DNA of 64,000 bases from Streptomonospora alba. Lineage in GTDB: Bacteria; Actinomycetota; Actinomycetes; Streptosporangiales; Streptosporangiaceae. The DNA lies in the NCBI RefSeq assembly GCF_000826685.1, contig NZ_JROO01000010.1, forward strand, positions 124,001 through 188,000. Reading direction: 5' to 3'. The notes beneath the pieces were generated by a model, which ran no database searches, had not been told where the DNA came from, and saw only the letters and a list, made by a program, of their open reading frames with translations. A program made the position numbers and the translations under genes. The stretch's first letter is position 1. Each line of letters opens with the position of its first letter. Of the stretch, positions 42,448 through 64,000 are shown piece after piece.

Positions 42448-42841
42448 GGCTCTTCGCCGGATGAGGGTGTAGCTGTGGCGCGGCGGCCCCGGATAGATGT
42501 CGAGGTGCTAAAGGGCAAGGCTCCTACACGCTCATCCTGAAAACCGCCGCCGTGGCCGGGACCTGATGACCGCACTGATCGACTCAATCGGCCATGCTGT
42601 CCCGGCCGCTCTTGTCGAGGTCGTCACGCTCGGTCGGATACTGAAGAAGCGTGCCGACGACGTGCTCGCCTATTTCGACTGACCCGGCACCAGCAACGGG
42701 CCCATGGAGGCGATCAACGGCTGCCTCGAACACCTCCGCGGCTCAGCGCTCGGGTTCCGCAACCTCACCAACCACATCGCCAGAAGCCTGCTCGAGACCG
42801 GCGGGTTCGGACCACGACTACACCTCAACCCGTGAAGAGCC
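42448..42841 (+). mobile_element. Internally deleted ISL3-family element with terminal inverted repeats
   Basis: Left end GGCTCTTCGCCGG and right end (read inward) GGCTCTTCACGG match as terminal inverted repeats. Between them remains the C-terminal part of an ISL3 transposase (TALIDSIGHAVPAALVEVV, ADDVLAYFD, stop, then PGTSNGPMEAINGCLEHLRG, LTNHIARSLLETGGF). A TGA replaces the usual Arg codon after YFD, and the N-terminal three quarters are deleted. The remnant is 394 bases and sits 67 bases beyond the end of the biosynthetic operon. Confidence 0.65.
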
Positions 42842-42908
42842 GGAAAACCCATGCTCGTGCGCACTGCGCTTTCGCAGTCGCATTCGCGCCACCCTGCGCC
42901 GCCTGAGA

Positions 42909-45900
42909 TCACGCGAGGAGGGCGGCTATGCGGCTGATGTAGTCGTCGCGTCCGATGAATCCGCCGGCTCGGCCGGGTGGTACGGCGAGTCCGTCGACGA
43001 GGATCCCGAGGCGATCGGCGACGTCTTCCGCCGCCGTCGTGCGGGCGGTGCGGAGGAGGTCGGCGTCGCCGGGAAGCAGCGACCCCTGATTGAGGTGCCA
43101 GGCGGCGGAGTCGAGGACGACGTCGAGCCCATGGAGGCGTCGAGCCGATTCGAGCGCGCTTCGCCACGGACCGCTCATGGCGGCGAGGAGGCGGTCGAAC
43201 TCCTCGAGAGTGCGTCGTGTGAGGTGGACTCGGGCAAGCTCCTCGATCTCGGCGAGGTAGGGGTTGGGATCGCCGGGGTCGACGCGGTGGCTGAGTTGGT
43301 CGGCGAGAACGCGCTCGTGCAGGGAAACGAGGCGCAGTGTCGAGCGCGCGTCGCTCGTTCCGGGGCCGTCGGGCGCGGGGACGGGTGAGGTGTCGGTTCC
43401 GTCGAGGAGCTGTTTCCCAGCCTCAAGCAGCAGGAGCCGGGTGTCGCCTCCGGCCGCGTGGAAGGATTTGGCCATGTCCTCGTAGGCGGTGATGCGATTG
43501 GTGTGCAGTACGCCTTGGAAGCCGCACAGCCGCCGGCAGGTGGCGGTGACAGACTCCACCGTGGTGGCCGCAGCGGCTTTGGCGAGGGTGCGGTCGCGGT
43601 TGGCGGCGAGCCAGGGCGCATAGGCGGTGCCGCTGTCCGTCGCGCGCGGCTCGGCGGTGTTGGTGCCGAGGCGTTCGTCGGTGAAGTCGCGACGCACCTT
43701 CTCGACGTAGGAACCTGTGGCGTAGACACGTGCGATCGCCGAGGCGAGATCGCTGCTGTGGGTGGTGAACGTGAGCGCGGGGGTTCCCGGATCGCCGATG
43801 ATCCGCTGCGCGTTGTAGCGGAAGGCGATGGCGACCGCGGCGCGGGCGGCCGAGGCGAGGGCGACGGCGGCGAAGACGACGGCGGCGTTGACTCCTCCCA
43901 GGGACCGGGCGAGCCGCTGCGTCGGCGTCAGGGGATCGGTGACGCCGCCGCCGGTGATGACGGCGGTGTCGCGGAGCCAGTAGCCGAACGGGATCTCGGC
44001 GTCCCGGAAGCGGATCACCGAGTAGTCGAGTGGCACCGGCGCTCCGCCGGGCAGGATCGTCACATCGGCTCGGGGGTGCGGGAAGCGGAACGCGAACGCG
44101 TGGATTCCGTGGTCGGAGTCGTCGACGACGAGGCGGGCGTTGACGACCGCGGTGCGTCCGAGTCCGGTCCAGCCGACGTTGGGCATGATCTTCAGCGCAG
44201 CATCCTCGGGGGTGTGGAGCGTGAAGGTACCGCGCTCGCGGTCGTAGCGGGCCTCGGTGCGGATGGTGGTCTGGGATCCGCCGCGTCCGAGTTCGGTGGC
44301 GACGATCGCGCCGGGGGCGTCCATGGTGTCGAGGTCGGCGGTAAGGGCGTCCAGATCGTCGTCGGTGTGCCCGCATTCGACCAGAGCGGTTGTGGCGACG
44401 CCGTAGTGCACCATGGCGGCGTGCATCATGGCGGGATCGACGATTCCAGCCCATTCCATACCGGCCAGCAGGCGCATGGGGGAGTCGTGCAGCGCTCGGG
44501 CCGGCCCCAGGGCTCGGCCGAACGCCTGGAGGCGATGGTAGACGGCGCTGACGCCGGTGAGGTTCCAAGAGAACTCGGGCAGGTCGAGGAGTTCGTCGAG
44601 TTCGGCCCACACGGGCATGCGGTCGTGGAAGAGCGGATGCAGGGGCATTTCACCACCTCGATGTGCCGGTCGCGGCGAAGGTCGGGCAGGTGTTGCGGAA
44701 ATCGCCGCCGTTTCCCGGTCCGGTGGCGGGGAGGGCTCGTCTCCCAGTTCGGTGTACCAGTAGCGCTGCAGATTCCAGGTGCGCTTGGGAAGTCGCGGAC
44801 GCGCCGCGGTCTGGTCGGGCGGGGCGGCGAGGACGGCGTGGGCGTTGGCTCCGGAGAGTCCGAAAGAGGAGACGGCCGCCCGGCGACGGCCGTCCACGGG
44901 CCAGGGTTCGCAGGCGGTCGGCACGCGAAGCGCCGAGCCGTCCCAGTCGATGGCGGGCGCGAGGGCTGAGAGGTGCAGGGAAGCGGGCACCTGCCCGTGT
45001 TCGAGGGCGAGGACCGCCTTGAGGAAACCCGCGAGCCCGGCGACGGGTTCGAGGTGGCCGATGTTGGTCTTGACGGATCCGACGAGACACGGGCGCGCGT
45101 TGCCGCCGTAGACCTCGTGGAGGGCGGCGAGTTCGATGTCGTCGCCGGTACGGGTCCCCGGGCCGTGGGCCTCGACATAGGCGATCTCGCCGGGGCGGCG
45201 TCCCGCGTCGGCCAGGGCTTTGCGCATCATGCGAACCTGGCCCGGGCCGCTGGTGGCGACGATATTTCGGCCGGAGCGGCCGTTGGCGTTGACCGCGCTG
45301 CCTTCGACGACGGCGTGGATCGGATCGCCGTTGTGCAGGGCGTCGGAGAGGCGCCGCAGGAGGACGGCGGCGACGCCTTCGCCGCGAGGGTAACCGTCGG
45401 CGTCGACGCTGGCGAACGCGGAACGCCCGTGGGGCGAAAGGGCTTTCGCGAGGCCGTGGGAGGGTCCCCCATGGGGGTTGAGGATCAGGTGCGTTCCGGC
45501 GGCGACCGCGGTGTCGACTTCGCCGCTTCGGAGCGCCCGGCAGGCGGTGTGGACAGCGGTCAACGACGCCGAGCACGAGGTGTCGAGCGTGAGGCTGGGG
45601 CCTTGGAGGTCGAAGAAGTGCGACACCCGTCCGGACAGGAAGCTCTTGAGCCCTCCGCCGGACAGCGTGTACATGTTCGGCGGCTCAGCGGAGGTCGAAA
45701 GGTCCCAGTAGTCGGAATGGGACTCGCCGACCCAGATCCCGCTGCGCGGCCCCGCGAGGTCGGCGGCCGAGAGTCCGGCGTCGTCGAAGGACTCCTGGAC
45801 GGTCATGAGTAGCAAACGCAGGCGCGGATCCGAGCGGTGGGCCTCACGAGGGCCGAACCCGAAATGCCGGGCGTCGAACCGGTCGACGCCGTCGACGAAT

Positions 45901-46787
45901 CCGCCTGCGTTCATGATCTGCGGCTCTTCGTCGTCGCGGACGCGGTCGGCCGGGACGGGGCCGACGGCGCTGCGGCCGGTACGGAGCAGTTCCCAAAAGG
46001 AGGCGGGGTCGGCGGCTCCGGGGAACCGGCAGGCCATACCGATCACGGCGACGGGATCGGTGCGATGCCGGTCGACGGTGTCGCGCACGACGATGCGGAT
46101 CGATTCGTCGGGTTGTTCGGTGACGAGGAAATGGCCGGCGTCGACGAGATCGACGGAGATGTCAGCGTGGGTCGTCTCGCTCCATTCCGTCAGGCTGCCG
46201 GGGTCGAACAGCGGGTCCCGCCTGCCGCAGACGGCCGTGATGGGACAGGTCAGCGTGTACGGCGCGGGCCGGTAGCGACCCACGGCCGCGGCGTCGGCGC
46301 GGATGGCGTCGACGTTGGCACGGACCGCGTCGCGGGCGGATTCGGGGGCCCCGCCCAGCCGGATGACCTCGTCGACTACACCGTCGTCGGAGAGTTCGTG
46401 CTGGGAGGAGAACCGGCTCGGAGGCAAGTGGGGAGGCGGCGCGGAGAGGACGAACAATCGTTCGGGGCCGGTGCCGTGGCGTTGGCTGAGCAGGGCGGCC
46501 ACGGCGTGCGCGAGCCAGGCTCCCATCGAGTGGCCGAGGAAGTAGTAGGGCCCGTTCAGGAGGGGGATGACGTCGGAGGCGATGCCTTCGGCGAGTGTGT
46601 GCAGGGATGTGACGAGCGGCTCGTGTCGCCGCGGGCCTCTCCCGGGCAGCAGCACCGGGAGCACGTCTATACCGGGAACCCGCCAGTCCCCGAATAGGGA
46701 CGAAGGCGCGCCCGAGTAGGGGAAGCAGAGCAGGTGCTGGTCGGCGGCGGGGTCGGGGGTGTGTGCGAGCCACGGAGTCGACGCCAC
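42909..46787 (-). CDS. Thioesterase-ketosynthase-acyl-CoA-oxidase-like fusion protein
   Basis: 1292 residues with three domains. (1) Residues 1-240 are a type II thioesterase: LLCFPYSGAPSSLF, nucleophile GHSMG (S87), D191 in GRRDPLF, H219 in AGHFLV. (2) Residues 244-660 are a PKS-type ketosynthase: DPVAVIGMACRFPGA, C405 in DTSCSAS, H541 in EAHGPGT (usually EAHGTGT), H578 in KTNIGH; a post-KS linker LPKRTWNLQRYWY follows. (3) Residues about 716-1292 resemble an acyl-CoA oxidase: ALKIMPNVGWTGLGRTAVV, FRDAEIPFGYWL, GFQGVLHTNRITAY, then AAGGDTRLLLLEAG where acyl-CoA oxidases carry the catalytic Glu. No AT, KR, DH or ACP domain is present, so chains must come on a separate ACP. The GTG start has AAGGAG. 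It is the last gene of the operon. I know no characterised protein with this order. Confidence 0.88.
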   Translation of the reverse strand: MASTPWLAHTPDPAADQHLLCFPYSGAPSSLFGDWRVPGIDVLPVLLPGRGPRRHEPLVTSLHTLAEGIASDVIPLLNGPYYFLGHSMGAWLAHAVAALLSQRHGTGPERLFVLSAPPPHLPPSRFSSQHELSDDGVVDEVIRLGGAPESARDAVRANVDAIRADAAAVGRYRPAPYTLTCPITAVCGRRDPLFDPGSLTEWSETTHADISVDLVDAGHFLVTEQPDESIRIVVRDTVDRHRTDPVAVIGMACRFPGAADPASFWELLRTGRSAVGPVPADRVRDDEEPQIMNAGGFVDGVDRFDARHFGFGPREAHRSDPRLRLLLMTVQESFDDAGLSAADLAGPRSGIWVGESHSDYWDLSTSAEPPNMYTLSGGGLKSFLSGRVSHFFDLQGPSLTLDTSCSASLTAVHTACRALRSGEVDTAVAAGTHLILNPHGGPSHGLAKALSPHGRSAFASVDADGYPRGEGVAAVLLRRLSDALHNGDPIHAVVEGSAVNANGRSGRNIVATSGPGQVRMMRKALADAGRRPGEIAYVEAHGPGTRTGDDIELAALHEVYGGNARPCLVGSVKTNIGHLEPVAGLAGFLKAVLALEHGQVPASLHLSALAPAIDWDGSALRVPTACEPWPVDGRRRAAVSSFGLSGANAHAVLAAPPDQTAARPRLPKRTWNLQRYWYTELGDEPSPPPDRETAAISATPARPSPRPAHRGGEMPLHPLFHDRMPVWAELDELLDLPEFSWNLTGVSAVYHRLQAFGRALGPARALHDSPMRLLAGMEWAGIVDPAMMHAAMVHYGVATTALVECGHTDDDLDALTADLDTMDAPGAIVATELGRGGSQTTIRTEARYDRERGTFTLHTPEDAALKIMPNVGWTGLGRTAVVNARLVVDDSDHGIHAFAFRFPHPRADVTILPGGAPVPLDYSVIRFRDAEIPFGYWLRDTAVITGGGVTDPLTPTQRLARSLGGVNAAVVFAAVALASAARAAVAIAFRYNAQRIIGDPGTPALTFTTHSSDLASAIARVYATGSYVEKVRRDFTDERLGTNTAEPRATDSGTAYAPWLAANRDRTLAKAAAATTVESVTATCRRLCGFQGVLHTNRITAYEDMAKSFHAAGGDTRLLLLEAGKQLLDGTDTSPVPAPDGPGTSDARSTLRLVSLHERVLADQLSHRVDPGDPNPYLAEIEELARVHLTRRTLEEFDRLLAAMSGPWRSALESARRLHGLDVVLDSAAWHLNQGSLLPGDADLLRTARTTAAEDVADRLGILVDGLAVPPGRAGGFIGRDDYISRIAALLA

Positions 46788-46811
46788 GGCCCACTCCTTT
46801 CCGGGCGGGGA

Positions 46812-47573
46812 CTAGAACTGGCTGAATCCGCCGTCGACGCTGATCGCCGTCCCCGAGATGGCGGAGCCCTGGGGGGAGGCGAGAAGGGCGACGAGGGCGG
46901 CGACTTCGGCGGGGTCGACGATGCGGCCGAGGTCGCCGGTGTAGTGCTGGGCGGCGGTGGCGAAGTCGGCGCCGGCGGTTTCGATCGCGCCTTGCAGCTC
47001 GCGGGGGATCATCTCGGTGTCGGTCATGCCGGGGCAGACGGCGTTGACGCTGACGCCGCGGGCGGTGACCTCCTTGGCGAGGGTTTTGGTGAATCCGATG
47101 AGTGCGTGTTTGGAGGCGGTGTAGCCGGGAAGTCCAGCGACTCCGGTCTTGCCCGCGATAGAGGACATGTTGACGATCCGCCCGTAGCCCCGAGGCAGCA
47201 TGTGCCGCAATGCCGAGCGGCACGCCCAGAACGCCGAGTTGACGTTGAGGGTGAAGGCGCGGTCCAGGGTGTCGTCGTCGAGTTCGGTGACGGGACGTCC
47301 GTGGTCGGTGACGCCTCCGGCGTTGTTGACGAGTACGTCGATGCGGCGGTGATCGTCCACGGTCTGCTCGATGAGACGAGCGACCTGCGCGGGGTCGGTG
47401 GCGTCGCACTCGACGTAGCGGACACGGCTTCCGCCCAGGTCGGCGACCGCGTCGCGGCCGCGCTCGGGTGACCGGCCCGCGATGACGACGGTGGCACCGT
47501 CGGCGAGAAGCTTTTCTGCGCAGGCGAGCCCGATGCCTGCTGTGCCACCCGTGATGATTGCGACGTTTCCCAT
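46812..47573 (-). CDS. FabG-type 3-oxoacyl-ACP reductase (SDR)
   Basis: 253 residues: TGGTAGIG (8-15), NNAG (83-86), S138, and Y151/K155 in GYTASKHA; the ending SGTAISVDGGFSQF is typical. AGRSP after the second strand suits NADPH. It should reduce the 3-oxoacyl chain made by the ketosynthases in the same operon. AAGGAG with eight-base spacing precedes the ATG at 47573. It lies 20 bases after the FabF-like gene and 24 before the fusion gene. Confidence 0.92.
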   Translation of the reverse strand: MGNVAIITGGTAGIGLACAEKLLADGATVVIAGRSPERGRDAVADLGGSRVRYVECDATDPAQVARLIEQTVDDHRRIDVLVNNAGGVTDHGRPVTELDDDTLDRAFTLNVNSAFWACRSALRHMLPRGYGRIVNMSSIAGKTGVAGLPGYTASKHALIGFTKTLAKEVTARGVSVNAVCPGMTDTEMIPRELQGAIETAGADFATAAQHYTGDLGRIVDPAEVAALVALLASPQGSAISGTAISVDGGFSQF

Positions 47574-47593
47574 CGAAGCGGCTCCTTGTGAGG

Positions 47594-48826
47594 TTAGGCG
47601 GTGGTGAAGGCGAGGACGGCGTTGTGGCCGCCGAAGCCGAAGCTGCTGGAAATGGCGTTTTCCAGCGTCTGTGAACGGGCGTCGCCGATGACGAGGTCGA
47701 GGTCCTCGGCGCCTTTGCACGGTGTGGCGAGATTCGCTACGGGCGGCACGGTTCGGGTGTGTACCGCGAGCACGGTGTAGGCGGCCTCGATGGCGCCGGC
47801 CGCCCCCATCGTGTGGCCGGTGACGCCCTTCGTGGAGGTCACCACAGCGGTCGGTGCTGTGGCGGCCACGACCCCCGCCTCGACCGCGTCGCCCGTGGGG
47901 GTGGAGGTGGCGTGGGCGTTGACATGGGCGATGTCCCGTGGGGAGAGGCCGCCGTCGCGGCACGCCTGTGCGATCGCCTCCTTGGCGCCGCGGCCGTCGG
48001 GGGCGGGCGAAGTGATGTGGTACGCATCCGACGTGGTTCCGTACCCGGCCAACTTGGCGTAGCGGCTGATGCCGCGGGCGGCGGCATCGGACTCTCGTTC
48101 GAGCACGAGGACTCCCGCCCCCTCGCCCATGACGAACCCGTCGTGTTCGGCGTCAAAGGGCCGCGAAGCCTGGGCGGGCGGGAACCGGCTCCCCCGCGAC
48201 AAGGCCCGCAGCTTGTCGAATCCCGCCACCTGCAGCGGCGTTACGCTGGCGTCGGTGCCGCCGGCGACGACGACGTCGGCGGCACCTGAGCGCAGCAGCC
48301 CCAGTGCGGTGCCGATCGCCGTCGCGCCCGAGGCGCAGGCGGTGGAGACGACCACGGCCGGACCGGTGGTGCCCAGCTCGATCGACAGGATGCCAGCAAC
48401 CATGTTCGCCAGGGCGTTGGGCAGAAACCGGGCGTTGACGGCGTCCGGGCCCTCGGCCATGAGCCGTGCGTGGTTGTCTTCGAGCGTCTGCACCCCGCCG
48501 AACGCGGTCCCCATAACGACGGCCACGCGGGCCTCTTGCACCGCAGTCTGCGTGAGGCGGGCGTCGCCGAGGGCTTCTTGCGCTGCGACCAGAGCGAACT
48601 GCGTGCTGCGATCGTACCGGCGGGAGAGGCGCCGGCCGGTGAGGCGGCCGGCGTCGAATCCGCCCGGAACGGTACTGGCGAATCCGACAGGTGCGTGCGC
48701 GAGGGAGTCGAGGGCGCCGGCGGTCGGAATCCCGGAACAGACGGCCCTCCAGTTGGAGGCACGTCCGACGCCGGCGGGAGTGACGAGCCCAACGCCGGTG
48801 ACCGCGACCGGAGGGCTATCCGTCAC
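47594..48826 (-). CDS. FabF-type 3-oxoacyl-ACP synthase (ketosynthase II)
   Basis: 410 residues with an intact decarboxylating triad: C164 in STACASGA, H305 in NAHATSTPTGD and H338 in GHTMGAAGAIEA. The ends MxxxPVAVTGVGLVTPAG and SFGFGGHNAVLAF are canonical. It extends an acyl chain with malonyl-ACP. Because Cys is present it is a true synthase and not a chain-length-factor partner. GTG start; its first 11 bases overlap the ACP gene, so the two are coupled. It has a second, different ketosynthase for company in the fusion protein. Confidence 0.93.
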   Translation of the reverse strand: MTDSPPVAVTGVGLVTPAGVGRASNWRAVCSGIPTAGALDSLAHAPVGFASTVPGGFDAGRLTGRRLSRRYDRSTQFALVAAQEALGDARLTQTAVQEARVAVVMGTAFGGVQTLEDNHARLMAEGPDAVNARFLPNALANMVAGILSIELGTTGPAVVVSTACASGATAIGTALGLLRSGAADVVVAGGTDASVTPLQVAGFDKLRALSRGSRFPPAQASRPFDAEHDGFVMGEGAGVLVLERESDAAARGISRYAKLAGYGTTSDAYHITSPAPDGRGAKEAIAQACRDGGLSPRDIAHVNAHATSTPTGDAVEAGVVAATAPTAVVTSTKGVTGHTMGAAGAIEAAYTVLAVHTRTVPPVANLATPCKGAEDLDLVIGDARSQTLENAISSSFGFGGHNAVLAFTTA

Positions 48827-49067
48827 GGTGCTCAGCTCCCGCCTTCCCGGAGACGACGCCGACTACCTGCTCGACGGTGCTCTGTGTGGTCAGTTCGTCT
48901 TCACCGATCCTGATGCCGAACTTGTGCTGGAGGATGTCGCCGAGTTCGACGGCGGCGACGGAATCGACCCCGATATCCTCAAGGGTGTTCCCAGGAATTA
49001 TCTCGTCGGCTGGTATATCGAATTCCTCGCTCAGGATTCCGGATACCTCTGCGGATATATCAAGCAA
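48816..49067 (-). CDS. Acyl carrier protein
   Basis: 83 residues from a TTG with AAAGGAA upstream. LEDIGVDSVAAVELGDILQ carries the phosphopantetheine Ser (S36) in the GVDS motif; the rest is the acidic four-helix ACP fold. It is the only carrier protein in the operon and must serve both ketosynthases, the reductase and perhaps the oxidase-like domain. It is the first gene of the operon, and the following KS gene overlaps its end. Confidence 0.92.
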   Translation of the reverse strand: MLDISAEVSGILSEEFDIPADEIIPGNTLEDIGVDSVAAVELGDILQHKFGIRIGEDELTTQSTVEQVVGVVSGKAGAEHRDG

Positions 49068-49572
49068 TCTGATTCCTTTCGCGAAATGCCGGTTCGGTGG
49101 CGTGCTCGTCAGGTATCGACGTCCCTACGCACGTCTCCGGTGTACGAACGAAGCGAAAATCCGTACCTGTTCGTCCCTGGAAACATCCCCATTCCACCGT
49201 GCGCGGTCCGCAGAACGGAAGGGAGAGCGCGGGCGAACGTGTCAATGCCCAGGGGTGGACTCAACAGGTTCATTGCGTTCGCGGCGTTTCGTCGCTGAAT
49301 ACCTTCGGGAAAACCCGGTGTGCGGATTGCGCGCCCGCTCCCACGCCGGGGGCGGCCGCATCCCCCGGGACCGCGTCCGGCTCTGCTCGAGGCTTGCTGC
49401 CATCGACCCGGCGGCGCGGATTCACGCGGTGGGCACCAAGGGCGCGGGCCTCCCGCGAGCCGTCCAGCGCCGCGATCCGCGGTCATGAACGTCATGAAGG
49501 CTCATCCCGTGCCCCCCTCGCGGTTTCCGTTCCTAACCCGTCGTCGAGGCGGCGACCTCTAGTGCCCTAGAC
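49068..49572. other. Divergent promoter region of the biosynthetic operon
   Basis: About 500 bases between the ACP gene (minus) and the IspH-like gene (plus). I see no gene. GC drops at both ends (49070-49150 and 49570-49740), consistent with promoters in both directions, but I cannot assign boxes. Confidence 0.5.
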
Positions 49573-50547
49573 GTGTCCTTTTCAGGAAATACAAGGCCAA
49601 ACCATGCAATGTGGACTCGTTTCTTTTGTGGGAGATCGCCCTATTTGGACCACGAACCCATTCGGAAAAACATGCGGCTGCGGTTTCACTCGTTTTCGAT
49701 CGGCGATAACTATATCGCTGGAGGGCGGTCCGCCGGCGGTCGATTGAGTTCCAGAAGATATGTGAGGGCTGGTGTGGGAAGAACACGGATATTGGTGTGG
49801 CTCGCCGCGTCCGGTGTGCGCAAGGGCGAAATCGTCGTATTGCAGTGCTTCCGTGATCCCCACCGGGGTTGGGTGCCCTGTCCGGCGGCGCCGCTGGTCG
49901 CCGCCCATGCGGACGGCCGAGGACGCGAGGTGCGCACGTATGAACTCGACATGGCCCCTGAGGCCGGAGAAGACGCGACTGTCTGCGCTGCCAGCTATAT
50001 CGATCCCCGGACCGGTCTTCCTGTCGGTGTTGCGATCGGTGCCCGCTCCGACGATGCCGGGGCGATGGCGATCGCGCGCGACGTCACGGAGTCCTGGATG
50101 GCCGTCATGCGGTCACGGCGCCTACTCCTGTGTGACCGGAGTTGTGGGTCCGGGTGCGCGCGAATCGATTCGTCCGACGTCGTCTTCGTGCTCGGGGACG
50201 CTCCTGCAGCGGAGGCCTGCGGCATTGCCGTTCGACCTGAGCACCCGCGTGCGGCGGTACACGTCGTCGACGACCGCATGGTCGTCGCACCGGAATGGCT
50301 CGCCGGACGCAGGGATGTCGGAGTGGTTCTGGGGGAGAACGTCCGCCCCACGCTCGTTCGCACACTGCTCAGTGCCCTCGACGGCGTGGGACCGGTGGTC
50401 GTCGACCACTGTGTGCCCCGGGCCGGCGGGGCGGGCGTCCAGGCGCCGACGTCGGTCGACGCGCGAGGCGATGCGCGTCACCGCGTTCCGGTATCGGGAC
50501 GCCAAAGTGCGGTGGCCCGCGCCAGTAGTCCGCGTGCGACCTCATGA
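49573..50547 (+). CDS. Degenerate IspH/LytB-like protein (start uncertain)
   Basis: The open frame allows 324 residues, but the first 60-75 come from AT-richer DNA and may be untranslated; in-frame GTG/TTG codons near 49762-49792 are alternatives. By eye the core resembles IspH (HMBPP reductase). VPCPAAPLVAAHADGRG sits like the family's ATCPLVxKVHxEAR Cys, LLLCDRSCGSGCARI like ICYATQNRQ, and the C-terminus VHVVDDRMVVAPEWLAGRRD, VGVVLGENVRPTLVRTLL like the end of IspH. The N-terminal PRGFCAGV motif is not visible, so a normal 4Fe-4S site is unlikely. It is divergent from the ACP-KS operon. Its 3' end overlaps the regulator gene by 70 bases. Confidence 0.4.
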   Translation: MSFSGNTRPNHAMWTRFFCGRSPYLDHEPIRKNMRLRFHSFSIGDNYIAGGRSAGGRLSSRRYVRAGVGRTRILVWLAASGVRKGEIVVLQCFRDPHRGWVPCPAAPLVAAHADGRGREVRTYELDMAPEAGEDATVCAASYIDPRTGLPVGVAIGARSDDAGAMAIARDVTESWMAVMRSRRLLLCDRSCGSGCARIDSSDVVFVLGDAPAAEACGIAVRPEHPRAAVHVVDDRMVVAPEWLAGRRDVGVVLGENVRPTLVRTLLSALDGVGPVVVDHCVPRAGGAGVQAPTSVDARGDARHRVPVSGRQSAVARASSPRATS

Positions 50548-51818
50548 GCGGCGTGGGGCCGGACACGGGACCGCAGGACGGCGAGTGCCGATCGAGCCCG
50601 TCCGCTGCGAATCGAGGGATAGATATCCAGGAAGCGGTGCCAGCTCGACACCGCTTGTTCGAGTTGTCCCTGATCCAGGTGGTGCTCGGCAAGGCGCGCG
50701 CAGATGAGAGCTGTCGAGCGTCGCTCGCACGCCGGGCGCCACTGCACGGCGTTCGTGAAATCGAGAGTGGCGCCGGACCGGTCCCCCAATAGGCTTCGGA
50801 CAACGGCGCGCTGGTGGGCGAACGCTGCCCAGTGGTAGGTGACCGTTCCGGGGCCGCTCGTCGCCGCCTCCATGTACCGCTCGGCCGAGCTGAGGCAGGA
50901 GAGCGCCGCGTCCCGGTTGTCCCTACCGGCGTGGGCGACGGCGAGCTGGCCATGAAGGAAAGCGCTCGACGCGTCGTCGGTGCCGCGCGCAGCGGCATCG
51001 ACGGCCGCGCCGGCGAGATCGAGCGCCTGGTGGCGATGTCCGAGATGCCACGCCTGCACGCTCATCGCACGCAGCGTCACCGCATACCCCCACGCGTCGG
51101 CACCTTCAGCCGCGAGCAGGAGGGAAGCCCGGTAAAACCGTTGCGAAATACCGTGCTCCTCCAGATCGAAATAGGCGAAGCCGCACAGGTAGCTGAGCCT
51201 CGCAGACGTGCGAAGCAGCCGGCGCCGTGTGTCGGTACTGCCCGGAGAGCGCAACCAGGGGGCAACGGTGCGGTGAAGGTATTCGCCGAGGAACGGGGCG
51301 ACCCTTGACGCGCCGTGTACCGCCTCGGTTCTGGAGAAGATCTCCAGCATCTCCTCGCTGGTCTCGAGCTCGTCCTCTCCCACAGGTCCCGAATACGGGG
51401 TTTGGCGGTGTGCCGGCGGGAATTCGGTGGCGGGGCGCCACACGGGAACGTCCAGGTCGTGCAGGTTGAAGACGTATCGATGATCCCATCCGCTCTCGGC
51501 GGAGGAGCCGAGCCTCTCGAGCTGGGTCACCGCGTCGCCGCCGTCCTGCTCTGCGGAGCCGCCGCCGGCGAATCCCGCGTCTGCCGCGGTGACCGTTCGG
51601 CCCAGACTCCGTGACAGGACTTCCGCCACGAGGTCGGGCACAGGCCACCGAGGACGGGTCCCCGACCGCCACTGACTCACCGAGGCGCGCCCGTACCTCA
51701 GGCCCACCCCCATCTCCGCACCTATCGCGTTGACCTTCTTCGCCAACTCCTCGCCGCTCAATCGTGCTTCCTGCTGTAGCCGGATCAGACTCTGATTCGA
51801 GACTGGTTCGTCCACCAT
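50478..51818 (-). CDS. XRE-type regulator with TPR-like C-terminus
   Basis: 446 residues. The N-terminal helix-turn-helix (LIRLQQEARLSGEELAKKVN, then YGRASVSQWRSGTRPRWPVP) is followed by a long helical TPR-like region (about 170-430). Such proteins are common pathway regulators at actinomycete biosynthetic loci, where the TPR part senses a signal or peptide. It is convergent with the IspH-like gene and likely regulates the 42.9-49.1 kb operon. The ATG is preceded by a weak ribosome site and an AT-rich region (51840-51990). Confidence 0.85.
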   Translation of the reverse strand: MVDEPVSNQSLIRLQQEARLSGEELAKKVNAIGAEMGVGLRYGRASVSQWRSGTRPRWPVPDLVAEVLSRSLGRTVTAADAGFAGGGSAEQDGGDAVTQLERLGSSAESGWDHRYVFNLHDLDVPVWRPATEFPPAHRQTPYSGPVGEDELETSEEMLEIFSRTEAVHGASRVAPFLGEYLHRTVAPWLRSPGSTDTRRRLLRTSARLSYLCGFAYFDLEEHGISQRFYRASLLLAAEGADAWGYAVTLRAMSVQAWHLGHRHQALDLAGAAVDAAARGTDDASSAFLHGQLAVAHAGRDNRDAALSCLSSAERYMEAATSGPGTVTYHWAAFAHQRAVVRSLLGDRSGATLDFTNAVQWRPACERRSTALICARLAEHHLDQGQLEQAVSSWHRFLDIYPSIRSGRARSALAVLRSRVRPHAAHEVARGLLARATALWRPDTGTR

Positions 51819-52679
51819 GACCGACCGTCCGTAGGGATCGCTGTGGAAGCATGGCCAATTGGCCGGAGAAACGTGAAACGACTGTTCCGTCGATGTTCGT
51901 AATGAAGTATACCGCTTTTATTGCGCTTGACCGCGATAGGTGAATAAAGCCACGCATCGAAAGGGTGACATATTTGTTGTGGTGATGTAAGTAAACGCTA
52001 ACCGGAGTCGGTGAAGCCCTGACTGGGTCGTGATCTGGGCGGTCAGCCCTTCCCAGTACAGACCACCGACCCGCGCATCAACCCGGTGCGGCAAGGGCGG
52101 CGGCAAGAGGCGGCACAGCGGCACCCCGCGTCGCCGCGGGAGCGGACCATCGTCCGGAGCCGAAGCGCCGGACCCATGCCAGAGCCTGTGCGGCCCCTGA
52201 ATTCCGCTGCCTGGAGGCGGATCGTCCAGCGGGCTGCCGATTCGCGCCAACCCGTCCGGGGCCTGGGCCCGTATAGGTGCCCGTGCCGGGTGCCCGGGTT
52301 CGGTCTGCCCGCGTTAGCAGTGGGCTGCACCCGCACGAACCTCACCCCTCCGCTTAATCCGAAGAGCCACTCGAGCCTTAGCCGTGCCGACGGTAGATAC
52401 ACGACAAGAGTACCCGGATTCATCCCTCGAGGTGCTGTGCCTCCTTCAGGCCGGGATGACCTCCGAAACGCAGGAGAGGCGACAAATCTGTTTATTCCGC
52501 TTCAGGTTGTTGACGCGTTCATCGAATTCTTCTCTTTCGTTCTCCGGTTGCTTTGGATTTCCTGGGGAGGCGAACCCTGGATCGATGTGATTGATGCAGG
52601 CGTCGAGAGCATCTTCTGGAGAGTTGGGTTGCCCTTTCCGGTGGTTCGGATGTTCGCTGGCCTGATTGGCCGTGCAGCC
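51819..52679. other. Gene-poor stretch beyond the regulator
   Basis: 51819-51990 is AT-rich and probably holds the regulator's promoter. The remainder shows only frames with poor codon character. On the minus strand near 52000-52100, VGGLYWEGLTAQITTQSG looks like a transposase scrap, but I cannot place it in a family. Confidence 0.4.
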
Positions 52680-53303
52680 GGTATGTGTGGCCGTAAAATC
52701 CTCGTAGTCGAAGAAATCTCGAAGTTACGTGCCGCAGCGTCCGATTCGGTGACAGTGTATGGCCGCTCTGCCTTCCATGAAGGATCGGAAATCTGTTCCC
52801 GTTGATGCGGCCGAGCAGCTGCGCCATACGACGGTTCACGGCGTGATTTGGCTGACCGAATGGCTGTCCCGTACCAGCCGGCCGGGTACCGGTATTGCCC
52901 CCGGCGAACTGCGGACGCTCGTAGAGAACGTCGATCTCGAAGTCCCCTTGGTTAGCACGGCGGCTCACTGGCCGAACTCGAGCGCCTCTATCTCGCTGTA
53001 CCTGGGAGACCCCGCTGGTCTCCTTGTCGCTGATCTGTACGCCCGGAGCTTCTGAAGCACAGGAGTGGTCGTCCTCGTCGATACCAAGGATGATGACTCC
53101 TCCGGCCGTGTCGGCCAGCGCAGCGACGTCGGAGCACACTCGCGCTTGCCCGCGTCCGTGCGTTCGTACAGGTCGCGCTTGTAGTCGAGATCGAAGTTCT
53201 CGGGGACGTTGTTGGTGACCAGAAAGAGCACGTTGGCATAGGTGGCCTCGGCAACTCCGTTGCCGATGAGGGCTTCCAGCCGGGCGGAGCGCAATGTGGT
53301 CAT
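52680..53303 (-). pseudogene. Schlafen AlbA_2-type putative DNA-binding protein, frameshifted
   Basis: From the ATG at 53303: LRSARLEALIGNGVAEATYA, FDLDYKRDLYERTDAGKREC; then in a second frame DVAALADTAGGVIILGIDED; then another shift and, near the end, FPILHGRQSG and VTESDAAARNFE. The order (LDYKRxLY, then DVxALANTxGGxIxxGI, then RHGxxTxxLxESD) is that of AlbA_2/Schlafen-fold proteins, often associated with defence or regulation. At least three shifts make it dead. Confidence 0.5.
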
Positions 53304-53707
53304 GCTCCCAGGATGTTCGCCCGAGCTCCCCAGCACAGCGGTTCCCCTTGCTGGAAGAGCCGGCAGCCCTGGCCGCACTCATCGCCGACCAGGTGGAGAC
53401 GGGGTCGCCGACATCGGGGAGCATCCCGCGGTGACTTCGGGCGCCGTGCCCCCGGGATCAGGCCTTCCGCCATCGGGGGGCCTGGTCCCGGTAGGTGTGC
53501 GCACCGGAGGGGCGCCAGCCAGCCACTCCGACAAGGGTGGCCGCATGCGGACACCCCCTGGACGGTGGACCTTGGGCGAGCGTGTTGCCCAGCCTCGAAG
53601 GTGTCAAGAGCGCCCGTTCTGTCGAGAGATATAAACGTTTGGTGATCTTTCTTTGCGCTCAGTAACCCCCGTGAACCCTCCCCTTCCCCCAACTCAAAGG
53701 AGAGACG
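53304..53707. other. Upstream region of the halocin-like gene
   Basis: No gene is recognised in 53304-53600. The last 100 bases are AT-richer (AGATATAAACG at about 53626-53636) and should contain the promoter; AAAGGAG lies just before the TTG start. Confidence 0.5.
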
Positions 53708-54508
53708 TTGCAACGCATCCTTCGTAAGCCGGTGGCGATGGCTATCGCTCCGCTGACACTGGCATTCCTAGTGGGAGGGATGACGCCCTCCATGGCGGCG
53801 GCCCCGGAAGCCAAGGTCCCAGCAGGAGGTCAGGGCTCTGCCGCCACGCCTGCTAGCAATGCGGATGGGGCGTGCTCGACCGAGGAGTCCTCGGCGGGAG
53901 CGCTGACCGAGATGACCCTGGTCGAGGACCAGGAAGCGCGCGACCTGCCGGGTGCGGTCTCCGAGGCCGTGAAGAACGGAGAGATCTCCGTCCAGGCTCC
54001 GCAGAGTGCGTTGTCCCACGGGCAGACCAAGGTCTACACCGTGGATGCTGAGGACAAGGACACTACGTTCACCTCAGTGACCATCCCCGTCGGCGGGGAC
54101 TACAGCATGTTGAGCAACCTCACGGTTCTCTTCAACGAGAGCGGAGACATCGTCCAGTACGGCGAGACGCTCATCAGTGAGAACGACGCCGGAAACTTCA
54201 ACATCACGAGTTTCACGGACGGCGAGCTCGTGAACAGCAACGACACGGATCTGCCCTACATGACAGACGCCCAGCTGCAGCAGGATGCGGCCAGCGGTGA
54301 AGCGATGGCTACGGCGGGGGCCGGATCTACGGCCGCCTGCGTCGCGGCCGTTCTTGGCGTAAGTGGCGCCACCGCGTATCTTATCGTGGGTGCCTGCACA
54401 GGCGCGTGCACGGTTCCCGGGGTGGGAACGGCGGTATGTGTCGCGTGCATCGGCGCCTACGCCACTGTCGGTGGAGCGTCGATCACCGCCGTCGCCAGCT
54501 GCTTCTAG
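53708..54508 (+). CDS. Secreted protein with Cys-rich hydrophobic C-terminus (halocin C8-like bacteriocin candidate)
   Basis: 266 residues from a TTG with an excellent AAAGGAG site. A signal peptide (about 1-31: basic RKPVAMA, hydrophobic APLTLAFLVGGM, cleavage near SMAAA) shows export. The middle (about 60-205) is acidic and soluble. The last 60 residues (207-266) are Gly/Ala/Val-rich and hydrophobic with six Cys (211, 230, 234, 244, 247, 265), two in CTGAC and CVAC. That layout (signal, acidic domain, Cys-rich hydrophobic C-terminal peptide) resembles halocin-C8-type precursors, in which the C-terminal peptide is the toxin and the N-terminal part gives immunity. The similarity is structural, judged by eye. 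A small membrane protein follows after 10 bases. Confidence 0.6.
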   Translation: MQRILRKPVAMAIAPLTLAFLVGGMTPSMAAAPEAKVPAGGQGSAATPASNADGACSTEESSAGALTEMTLVEDQEARDLPGAVSEAVKNGEISVQAPQSALSHGQTKVYTVDAEDKDTTFTSVTIPVGGDYSMLSNLTVLFNESGDIVQYGETLISENDAGNFNITSFTDGELVNSNDTDLPYMTDAQLQQDAASGEAMATAGAGSTAACVAAVLGVSGATAYLIVGACTGACTVPGVGTAVCVACIGAYATVGGASITAVASCF

Positions 54509-62543: not shown

Positions 62544-64000
62544 GCAGCAGGCCGGGACCGCCGTTCCCGACTCCACGCGACTGTCCTTCGGTCAGGAGCG
62601 GTTGTGGCTGCTACAGCAGCTCGACCCGGCCAGCACCGCGTACAACGTCCCGCTCGCGCTGCGTTTCCACGACGGCCTCGACCCGGAAGCGCTCGACCGG
62701 GCGCTCGGCGCGCTCGTGCAGGAGCATCCCGTGCTCCGATGGGTGTTCGCCGTGGACTCCTCGGGCACGCCGGTCGCCAGGCCGGTGCCGTACTTCCGTG
62801 TTCCGGTGGAACGACGGAGCACCGGTCCCGGCGAGGACGACTGGCGGGCGCACGCGGACGAACTGGCCGCCGAGCCGTTCGACCTCACGGCGGGCCCCCC
62901 GGTGCGTGCGATGGTGGTCGAATGCGCCGACGGGTCGGCCGTGCTGTGTCTGGTAATCCACCACATCGTCTTCGACGGCCGGTCGGCCCAGGTCCTGACC
63001 GACGATCTGACGGCCCTTTACCGGTCGAGGACACCGCCGGCGCGCGAGGCGACGTATGAGGATTTCGTCGCTTGGCAGCGTTCGGCCGCGAGCGCCGATT
63101 CGGTCGCCGAGCACCTGCAGTACTGGCGGCGGGAGCTCGACGGATTCGAGCGGTTACGGCTGCCGACCGACCGCCCACGAGCGCCCGGCCTCGGATATGC
63201 GGGCGATCATGTCGAATTTGAACTGCCCGCCGAGCTGACGGCGGAACTGCGTGCGTTTGCGTTGCAGCATTGGTCTGCGGTTTCCAGCGCAGTGGCGGCC
63301 CTGTTCCAGGTGCTGATGTCCATCCACGCCGGGCAGGAGGACGTGACGATCGGATCGGTGCTGTACGGCCGCGACGACCGCCGCTTCTCCGACGTCATCG
63401 GCTTCTTCGTGAACACGGTGGTGTTGCGCACCCGCATCGAACGCTCGACGTCGTTCCGCGAACTGCTCCGGCAGGCGCACGGCAAGGTAATGGCGGCACA
63501 CACCCATCAGCGGGCGCCGTTCGAGCAGGTGGTCGCGGCGGTCCAGACGGAACGGGAACCGGGCCGCAATGCGATTTTCGACGTCGTGTTCGTCCACCAC
63601 GGGGAGTTGTCCGCACCCGATGAGAACGACCGGATCACCCCTCTGCCGTGGACGGTCGGGACCACCCGGTTCGACCTGGAACTGGCCACCTACGTGCGGA
63701 ACGGCGTGCTGCACGGCACGTTGACGTTTCGCTCGGGTCTTTTCCACCGCTCCACCGCGACGCGGCTGGCCGACCGGTTCGCCCGGCTTGTAGAACAGGC
63801 GCTCGACCAGCCGGACCAGCCGCTCTCCCGGCTGGACCTGCACTGCGCGGCGGAGAGCCGTCGCCGGGAGGAGCGCTGGCGCGCTACCGAACGCCCGGTC
63901 GCCACTCGGTCGCTTGGAGCTCTGCTGGAAGCGGAGGTCGCACGAACGCCCGACGCAGTCGCCGTGGTCGCGCCGGACACCCGGCTTACCTACGGGCAGC
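62533..64000 (+). CDS. Nonribosomal peptide synthetase, N-terminal part (C-A), runs off the window
   Basis: Open to the right edge; 489 codons seen. The TTG at 62533 (LSDEQQAG) after GGGGGCCGCC is the only sensible start and overlaps the MbtH gene by 11 bases. A condensation domain spans about 15-430: RLSFGQERLWLLQQL, active-site HHIVFDG (143-149), GFFVNTVVLRTRI, RAPFEQVV. From about 460 an adenylation domain begins (LLEAEVARTPDAVAVV, TYGQ). A C domain at the very N-terminus means this protein either receives a chain from another enzyme or uses an acyl starter. The A-domain specificity lies outside the window. Confidence 0.93.
   Translation, partial: MSDEQQAGTAVPDSTRLSFGQERLWLLQQLDPASTAYNVPLALRFHDGLDPEALDRALGALVQEHPVLRWVFAVDSSGTPVARPVPYFRVPVERRSTGPGEDDWRAHADELAAEPFDLTAGPPVRAMVVECADGSAVLCLVIHHIVFDGRSAQVLTDDLTALYRSRTPPAREATYEDFVAWQRSAASADSVAEHLQYWRRELDGFERLRLPTDRPRAPGLGYAGDHVEFELPAELTAELRAFALQHWSAVSSAVAALFQVLMSIHAGQEDVTIGSVLYGRDDRRFSDVIGFFVNTVVLRTRIERSTSFRELLRQAHGKVMAAHTHQRAPFEQVVAAVQTEREPGRNAIFDVVFVHHGELSAPDENDRITPLPWTVGTTRFDLELATYVRNGVLHGTLTFRSGLFHRSTATRLADRFARLVEQALDQPDQPLSRLDLHCAAESRRREERWRATERPVATRSLGALLEAEVARTPDAVAVVAPDTRLTYGQ

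Follow-up and report, generated by a model that had tools for sequence, protein, structure and literature searches.

Background

Dedicated acyl sub-clusters are known from lipopeptide pathways: those of CDA (fabF3, fabH4, hxcO, hcmO) and cystargamide (ctmA-D) are proposed to make 2,3-epoxy-acyl chains on an acyl carrier protein (ACP) (PMC9136287). The avenolide system includes Cyp17 and the avenolide synthase Aco, which belongs to the acyl-CoA oxidases (PMC7670052). Here we describe an operon that resembles each of these systems in part. It lies in a stretch of 64,000 nucleotides from Streptomonospora alba ('the window'), which is part of contig C2 in an actinobacterial genome of 5.9 Mb, and its four genes encode an ACP, a ketosynthase (KSa), a ketoreductase (KR) and a protein joining a thioesterase (TE), a second ketosynthase (KSb) and an acyl-CoA-oxidase-like (ACOX) flavoprotein domain. 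Our preferred reading, to which we give a probability of about 0.5, is that these genes form a self-contained, horizontally moving, type II-like acyl or polyketide pathway, whose product would be a small, oxidised acyl compound of the hydroxy or keto type, possibly a signal.

Like the CDA and cystargamide sub-clusters, the operon sets a dedicated ACP beside a FabF-type ketosynthase and an acyl-CoA-oxidase/dehydrogenase-like enzyme for ACP-bound short chains (PMC9136287), but it has neither KAS-III nor a nonribosomal peptide synthetase (NRPS), and it has the KR and the TE-KSb part in addition. Moreover, its ACOX domain lacks a catalytic Glu that is kept in the ACP-KS-ACOX trios of two other loci (L052, L068); HxcO and CtmB themselves enter this comparison by description only. 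With the avenolide system it shares its small size and the central place of an acyl-CoA oxidase (Aco, too, being compared by description only), whereas no cytochrome P450 or ArpA-type receptor was seen at the window operon, and the avenolide system is devoid of an ACP/KS set. Judged from its genes, the operon would be a variant of the dissociated acyl-ACP sub-clusters of lipopeptide pathways that includes an oxidase from a puzzling clade. The initial annotation of the window had called the locus undescribed. No paper on the exact gene combination was found, nor did the search of papers and plasmid records give any matching product cluster, a scope that leaves aside reference libraries of biosynthetic gene clusters such as MIBiG; the module of ACP, FabF and ACOX, however, is already described for CDA and cystargamide (PMC9136287).

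A four-gene operon shared by six species

All four genes lie on the minus strand, in the 5'-to-3' order ACP, KSa, KR and TE-KS-ACOX. The ACP gene (48816-49067; 83 amino acids; PP-binding, 7.4e-12) starts at a TTG codon with AAGGA upstream, and overlaps by 11 bp the KSa gene (47594-48826; 410 amino acids; Pfam ketoacyl-synt, 8e-50). The KR gene (46812-47573; 253 amino acids), which encodes a FabG-like short-chain dehydrogenase/reductase (SDR; Pfam adh_short, 2e-60), follows after 20 nt, and the TE-KS-ACOX gene (42909-46787; 1292 amino acids) after a further 24 nt. The latter divides into the TE domain (46074-46787, residues 1-238; Pfam Thioesterase, 2.2e-33 at residues 18-233), the type I-like ketosynthase domain KSb (44748-46073; Pfam ketoacyl-synt, 6e-68) and the ACOX-like domain (42909-44747; Pfam ACOX_C_alpha1, 9e-9). 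TTA codons are absent from the four genes. The spacing bears out the single biosynthetic transcript that the initial annotation had read here, as the domain content does its list of one ACP, two unlike ketosynthases (28% identical) and one KR.

Short patterns, which detect close relatives only, were scanned against 84,980 species genomes and hit five further loci: one in Nocardiopsaceae bacterium YIM 96095, two in Amycolatopsis records (99.9% identical to each other over 15.9 kb) and one in each of two Prauserella species. Among the 341 genomes of the window's family, a full-length ACOX is present only in the window genome, in a congener (genome G250, locus L049) and in YIM 96095, and is absent from four other congeners; the operon is therefore rare and patchy. 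Gene order and spacing (gaps of 20-27 nt) are nevertheless the same in six species, five besides the window's, and no frameshift or stop was found in the six operons. Purifying selection is indicated by the ratio of non-synonymous to synonymous substitution rates (dN/dS), which ranges over 0.15-0.35 across the enzymes and 0.29-0.43 in the ACP; the whole fused protein compared with the congener gives 0.21, and the ACOX part compared with Amycolatopsis and Prauserella gives 0.31-0.35. The arrangement is thus more than a chance one. Separate TE-KS and ACOX genes, overlapping by 4 bp, are found in Amycolatopsis and Prauserella; the joined form in the window and in its two closest relatives is thus a lineage-specific fusion.

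Homology to the congener covers positions 42901-51850, unbroken except for a short gap near 49.6 kb, and homology to YIM 96095 covers 42902-49077. Just outside the sharp edge of this conserved block, at the 3' side of the operon, lies a C-terminal remnant of an ISL3 transposase (42683-42835, plus strand; Pfam PF01610, 8.7e-6; NCBIfam ISL3, 3.8e-8), which is the insertion sequence (IS) remnant at which the initial annotation had ended the unit. IS pieces are found near the operon in the window, in L049 and in L013, and transposase-like genes, named by sequence, stand on both sides of it in Prauserella flavalba. Because IS pieces flank it and the homology edges are sharp, the operon looks like a mobile unit. 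Directly after the Amycolatopsis operon come dnd DNA-phosphorothioation genes (L010:16438-22411; DndA and DndC confirmed). Since the flanks in the other species have no NRPS, ligase or transporter in common, the operon looks complete in itself.

Carrier protein, ketosynthases, ketoreductase and thioesterase

The ACP keeps its phosphopantetheine Ser, within GVDSVAAVEL, and has an orthologue in all six species. KSa keeps the Cys-His-His residues, and its nearest solved structures are those of FabF/KAS-II enzymes. ACP-KSa pairs also occur in other specialised clusters, and by identity KSa is nearer to the ACP-paired ketosynthases of those clusters (48-53%) than to the genome's second FabF-like ketosynthase (42%). 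KR orthologues are 76-93% identical, and the TE motif GHSMG is invariant across the six species.

In KSb, Cys405, His541 (within an invariant HGPGT) and His578 are all present. They are followed by an invariant RTWNLxRYWY, which is like the post-acyltransferase linker of modular polyketide synthases (PKSs), a likeness suggesting that KSb probably descends from a modular PKS with a lost acyltransferase (AT). As Pfam finds neither an AT nor a cis ACP with it, KSb does not make up the KS-AT-ACP module of a modular type I PKS. A Cys-less chain-length factor partner, as in a type II pair, is likewise missing, both ketosynthases having their active-site Cys. The type II PKSs of nonactin and pamamycin are also without a chain-length factor, and combine discrete ketosynthases, KRs and an ACP with no AT in the cluster; they have many more ketosynthases and KRs than the window operon, and no ACOX.

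An acyl-CoA oxidase fold without the catalytic glutamate

An AlphaFold2 model of the ACOX part, built with 12 sequences, reached a predicted template modelling score (pTM) of 0.84, and Foldseek returned acyl-CoA oxidases first for this model (best match 5y9d, TM 0.78). The flavin adenine dinucleotide (FAD) motif TELGRGG is invariant in the domain across the six species. Fold and FAD motif agree with the initial annotation, in which the oxidase could supply an unsaturation, but the active site weakens that suggestion: the catalytic Glu of EG(D/E)N is replaced by Gly (HAAGGDT) in six of six operons, the window Gly standing opposite the Glu of WEGDN of Yarrowia ACOX3 in a HMMER alignment. For this reason the ACOX domain may supply a double bond, but this cannot be assumed.

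The replacement extends well beyond the operon. Of 40 aligned ACOX sequences, 36 have Gly, Ala or Thr instead of the Glu, and the four rows that keep it (L018, L068, L058 and L052) correspond to three distinct genes, L052 being the L018 gene. L018/L052 and L068 are ACP-KS-ACOX trios, and L058 is the window genome's own housekeeping-like ACOX; the trio stands alone in L052 and in a Streptomyces anthocyanicus plasmid. In the ACOX tree, the six operons form one group (100/100) next to the AfsA-linked ACOXs described below, while L064 and L026 are placed with weaker support, on long branches. The ACOX-like clade occurs at 67 places in 64 of the 341 family genomes (E <= 1e-30), and all 36 distinct clade sequences aligned are without the catalytic Glu. 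Next to a relative in Burkholderia plantarii, biosynthetic neighbours were not found. A YE motif (residue 414 in the modelled part) holds a Glu that was considered as a relocated base: the window clade and the AfsA-linked clade have it, and the Glu-bearing trios lack it. The idea was dropped, as ordinary acyl-CoA dehydrogenases have an acidic residue at the same place as well. It is conceivable, if doubtful, that this Glu-less clade carries out non-desaturating chemistry, such as oxygenation, on carrier-bound beta-oxygenated chains, the window operon being its smallest mobile unit and a source of a new class of small acyl metabolites or signals.

The nearest relatives of the ACOX domain (33-38% identity) sit in KAS-III-(KR)-AfsA-hotdog-ACOX operons of the same family (L051, L053-L057). 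KAS-III, KR, an AfsA-hotdog protein and a Glu-less ACOX are found at L051:7035-11357, L054:7291-11612, L055:8871-13403, L056:7032-11523 and L057:2086-6426, and the same set without KR at L053:8360-11711. AfsA passes the Pfam cut-off in the three operons tested, and was recognised by tblastn in the remaining ones. These operons look like an autoregulator- or butenolide-type pathway. A locus on plasmid pSTRVI02 of Streptomyces violaceusniger (L064:4965-14490) joins the AfsA-linked and ACP-linked ACOX sets: it holds KAS-III, AfsA, ACOX, two SDRs, an ACP, a FabF-type ketosynthase (a KSa relative, 46-48%), an NsdA-family neighbour, and a second, truncated KAS-III gene. The KR-bearing operons and L064 share with the window operon a Glu-less ACOX of the same wider clade and an adjoining SDR; they differ from it in having KAS-III and the AfsA hotdog protein, both missing from the window operon, and in having no TE-KSb.

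A candidate pathway and its alternatives

In the pathway that we propose, the host would charge the dedicated ACP by means of a phosphopantetheinyl transferase and of malonyl transfer by FabD. KSa would then join an acyl starter from fatty-acid synthesis to malonyl-ACP, KR would reduce the 3-keto group, and the ACOX-like flavoprotein would oxidise the chain on the ACP. KSb might perform one more condensation, or an acyl transfer, before the fused TE frees a small acyl product in oxidised form, with a hydroxy or keto group. The substrate, the product, the sequence of steps and how many cycles there are stand here as we infer them, and the flavoenzyme might catalyse either a desaturation or an oxygenation. 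A FabD-FabH-AcpP-FabF set is present on contig C46 of the same genome (FabD being named by sequence and position), so that malonyl transfer from fatty-acid synthesis is possible, in agreement with the initial annotation, which had looked elsewhere for the malonyl transferase.

Several points weigh against this pathway. Among the operon genes, Pfam finds no AT, dehydratase or enoylreductase, as previously noted, and KAS-III is absent from the genes of the six operons and their listed neighbours. With the Glu missing, the ACOX domain may be inactive or may carry out some oxidation other than a desaturation. In addition, flanking genes were called by visual reading and by a gene caller of our own making, which makes for a partial annotation.

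If the domain were catalytically dead or structural, the operon would make a 3-hydroxy- or 3-keto-fatty acid, or be decaying. The Glu-to-Gly change throughout the clade and the truncated neighbours in the window point this way; however, TELGRGG is invariant in six species, the dN/dS values of the fused protein and of its ACOX part given above point to purifying selection, and the six operons are free of frameshifts and stops, which makes this explanation very unlikely. We also consider it unlikely, though less strongly so, that the operon makes a diffusible autoregulator of the butenolide or gamma-butyrolactone kind, with ACOX in the role that Aco has for avenolide and the NsdA-type protein encoded nearby as local regulator. 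The operon is small and stands alone, its nearest ACOX relatives belong to the AfsA-linked operons, L064 unites KAS-III, AfsA, ACOX, SDRs, an ACP and a KSa relative beside an NsdA-family gene, and Aco, set beside the clade by description, is an acyl-CoA oxidase as well (PMC7670052). Against this, AfsA and P450 are found in none of the six operons (no AfsA match by Pfam among the genes, no P450 in the operon or its listed neighbours), and no receptor of ArpA/ScbR type was seen beside the operon. Only one TetR gene is found near the operon in the window; it is on the far side of the IS remnant and its C-terminal domain is AefR-like. NsdA-family genes are common in the genome.

The combination of ACP, FabF and ACOX is also the make-up of the CDA and cystargamide acyl sub-clusters, and a large NRPS/PKS locus begins 10.8 kb away, at window position 62602. 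The operon might thus provide an unusual acyl-ACP as starter for some other assembly line, perhaps this one. Yet it has a TE of its own, a remnant-rich stretch separates it from the window NRPS, and that NRPS is not shared: the flanks of L010, L012, L013 and L049 hold no linked NRPS, the neighbours in G250, Amycolatopsis and Prauserella being IS, dnd, catabolic or sugar genes. Starter supply therefore seems improbable to us, and we retain the self-contained pathway.

Regulator, IspH-like reading frame and neighbouring remnants

The initial annotation had bound the operon, a divergent IspH-like gene and a tetratricopeptide repeat (TPR) regulator into one unit of six genes. The core enzymes do recur together in five other species, but the IspH-like gene recurs only in the congener, and the regulator is beside the operon in three of the six species. 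The latter (50478-51818, minus strand; 446 amino acids), an XRE/TPR-like protein, is a member of the NsdA family (NCBIfam NF053720, 300.9 bits against a cut-off of 75). An orthologue stands beside the operon in the congener (L049), a relative (43%) directly upstream of it in Prauserella shujinwangii (L012), and another member beside the related cluster L064. Neither the Amycolatopsis nor the P. flavalba flanks hold such a gene, and in YIM 96095 the operon lies too near the end of its contig to show one. As eight NsdA-family genes pass the cut-off in the window genome, a single adjacency means little, and it is recurrence in separate lineages that counts as evidence; control of the operon by this protein would fit with it.

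The IspH-like open reading frame (about 49774-50547, plus strand; 257 amino acids, start inferred) diverges from the operon, and the 3' end of the regulator gene overlaps it. It is coding, as annotated, because indels relative to the congener come in multiples of three and changes are enriched at third codon positions (31/21/46). Its name holds only in part: the likeness is confined to residues 133-210 and to the C-terminal lobe of IspH (NCBIfam, E 1.5e-4, well short of the cut-off), Pfam gives no IspH/LytB (LYTB) match, and the frame does not encode a full tri-lobed IspH. Its AlphaFold model is unusable (predicted confidence, pLDDT, 44). It was found in the window genome and the congener only, and is 32% identical over about 100 amino acids to a protein of 115 amino acids (L055:7018-7365) that consists of the C-terminal LytB/IspH lobe alone (Pfam, 3.3e-10). 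The latter is encoded 1.5 kb from the KAS-III-KR-AfsA-ACOX operon of that locus, a neighbourhood that may or may not be a link.

Further upstream of the operon, a remnant of a pyridoxal phosphate (PLP)-dependent decarboxylase of the diaminobutyrate/lysine type (52834-53010, plus strand; 66% over 56 amino acids) has its intact counterpart next to the congener's operon (L049:18369-19793; Pyridoxal_deC, 1.5e-60). DesA-like decarboxylases of this kind are seen near ACOX operons in L049, L051:13821-15401, L054 and L065:18727-19272. As a pathway gene the decarboxylase was rejected, being absent in Amycolatopsis and Prauserella and part of a siderophore-like set in L054, and it is kept as a lead. The remnant is overlapped by a broken Schlafen/AlbA_2-like gene (52519-53457; weak match). 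The frame at 53708-54508 has a bacteriocin-like look, with a signal-peptide-like N-terminus and a hydrophobic, Cys-rich C-terminus; it matches no family, and an Arthrobacter agilis plasmid encodes a relative (34%). The NRPS/PKS locus, in which a condensation domain was identified, extends from the end of the window (62602-64000) to about C2:205998 (L021).

Should the proposed pathway be correct, four genes would be enough for a complete carrier-bound route to a small oxidised acyl compound, the set being small enough for expression in a single step, and the operon would draw attention to a widespread clade of ACOX-like proteins that do without the catalytic Glu.

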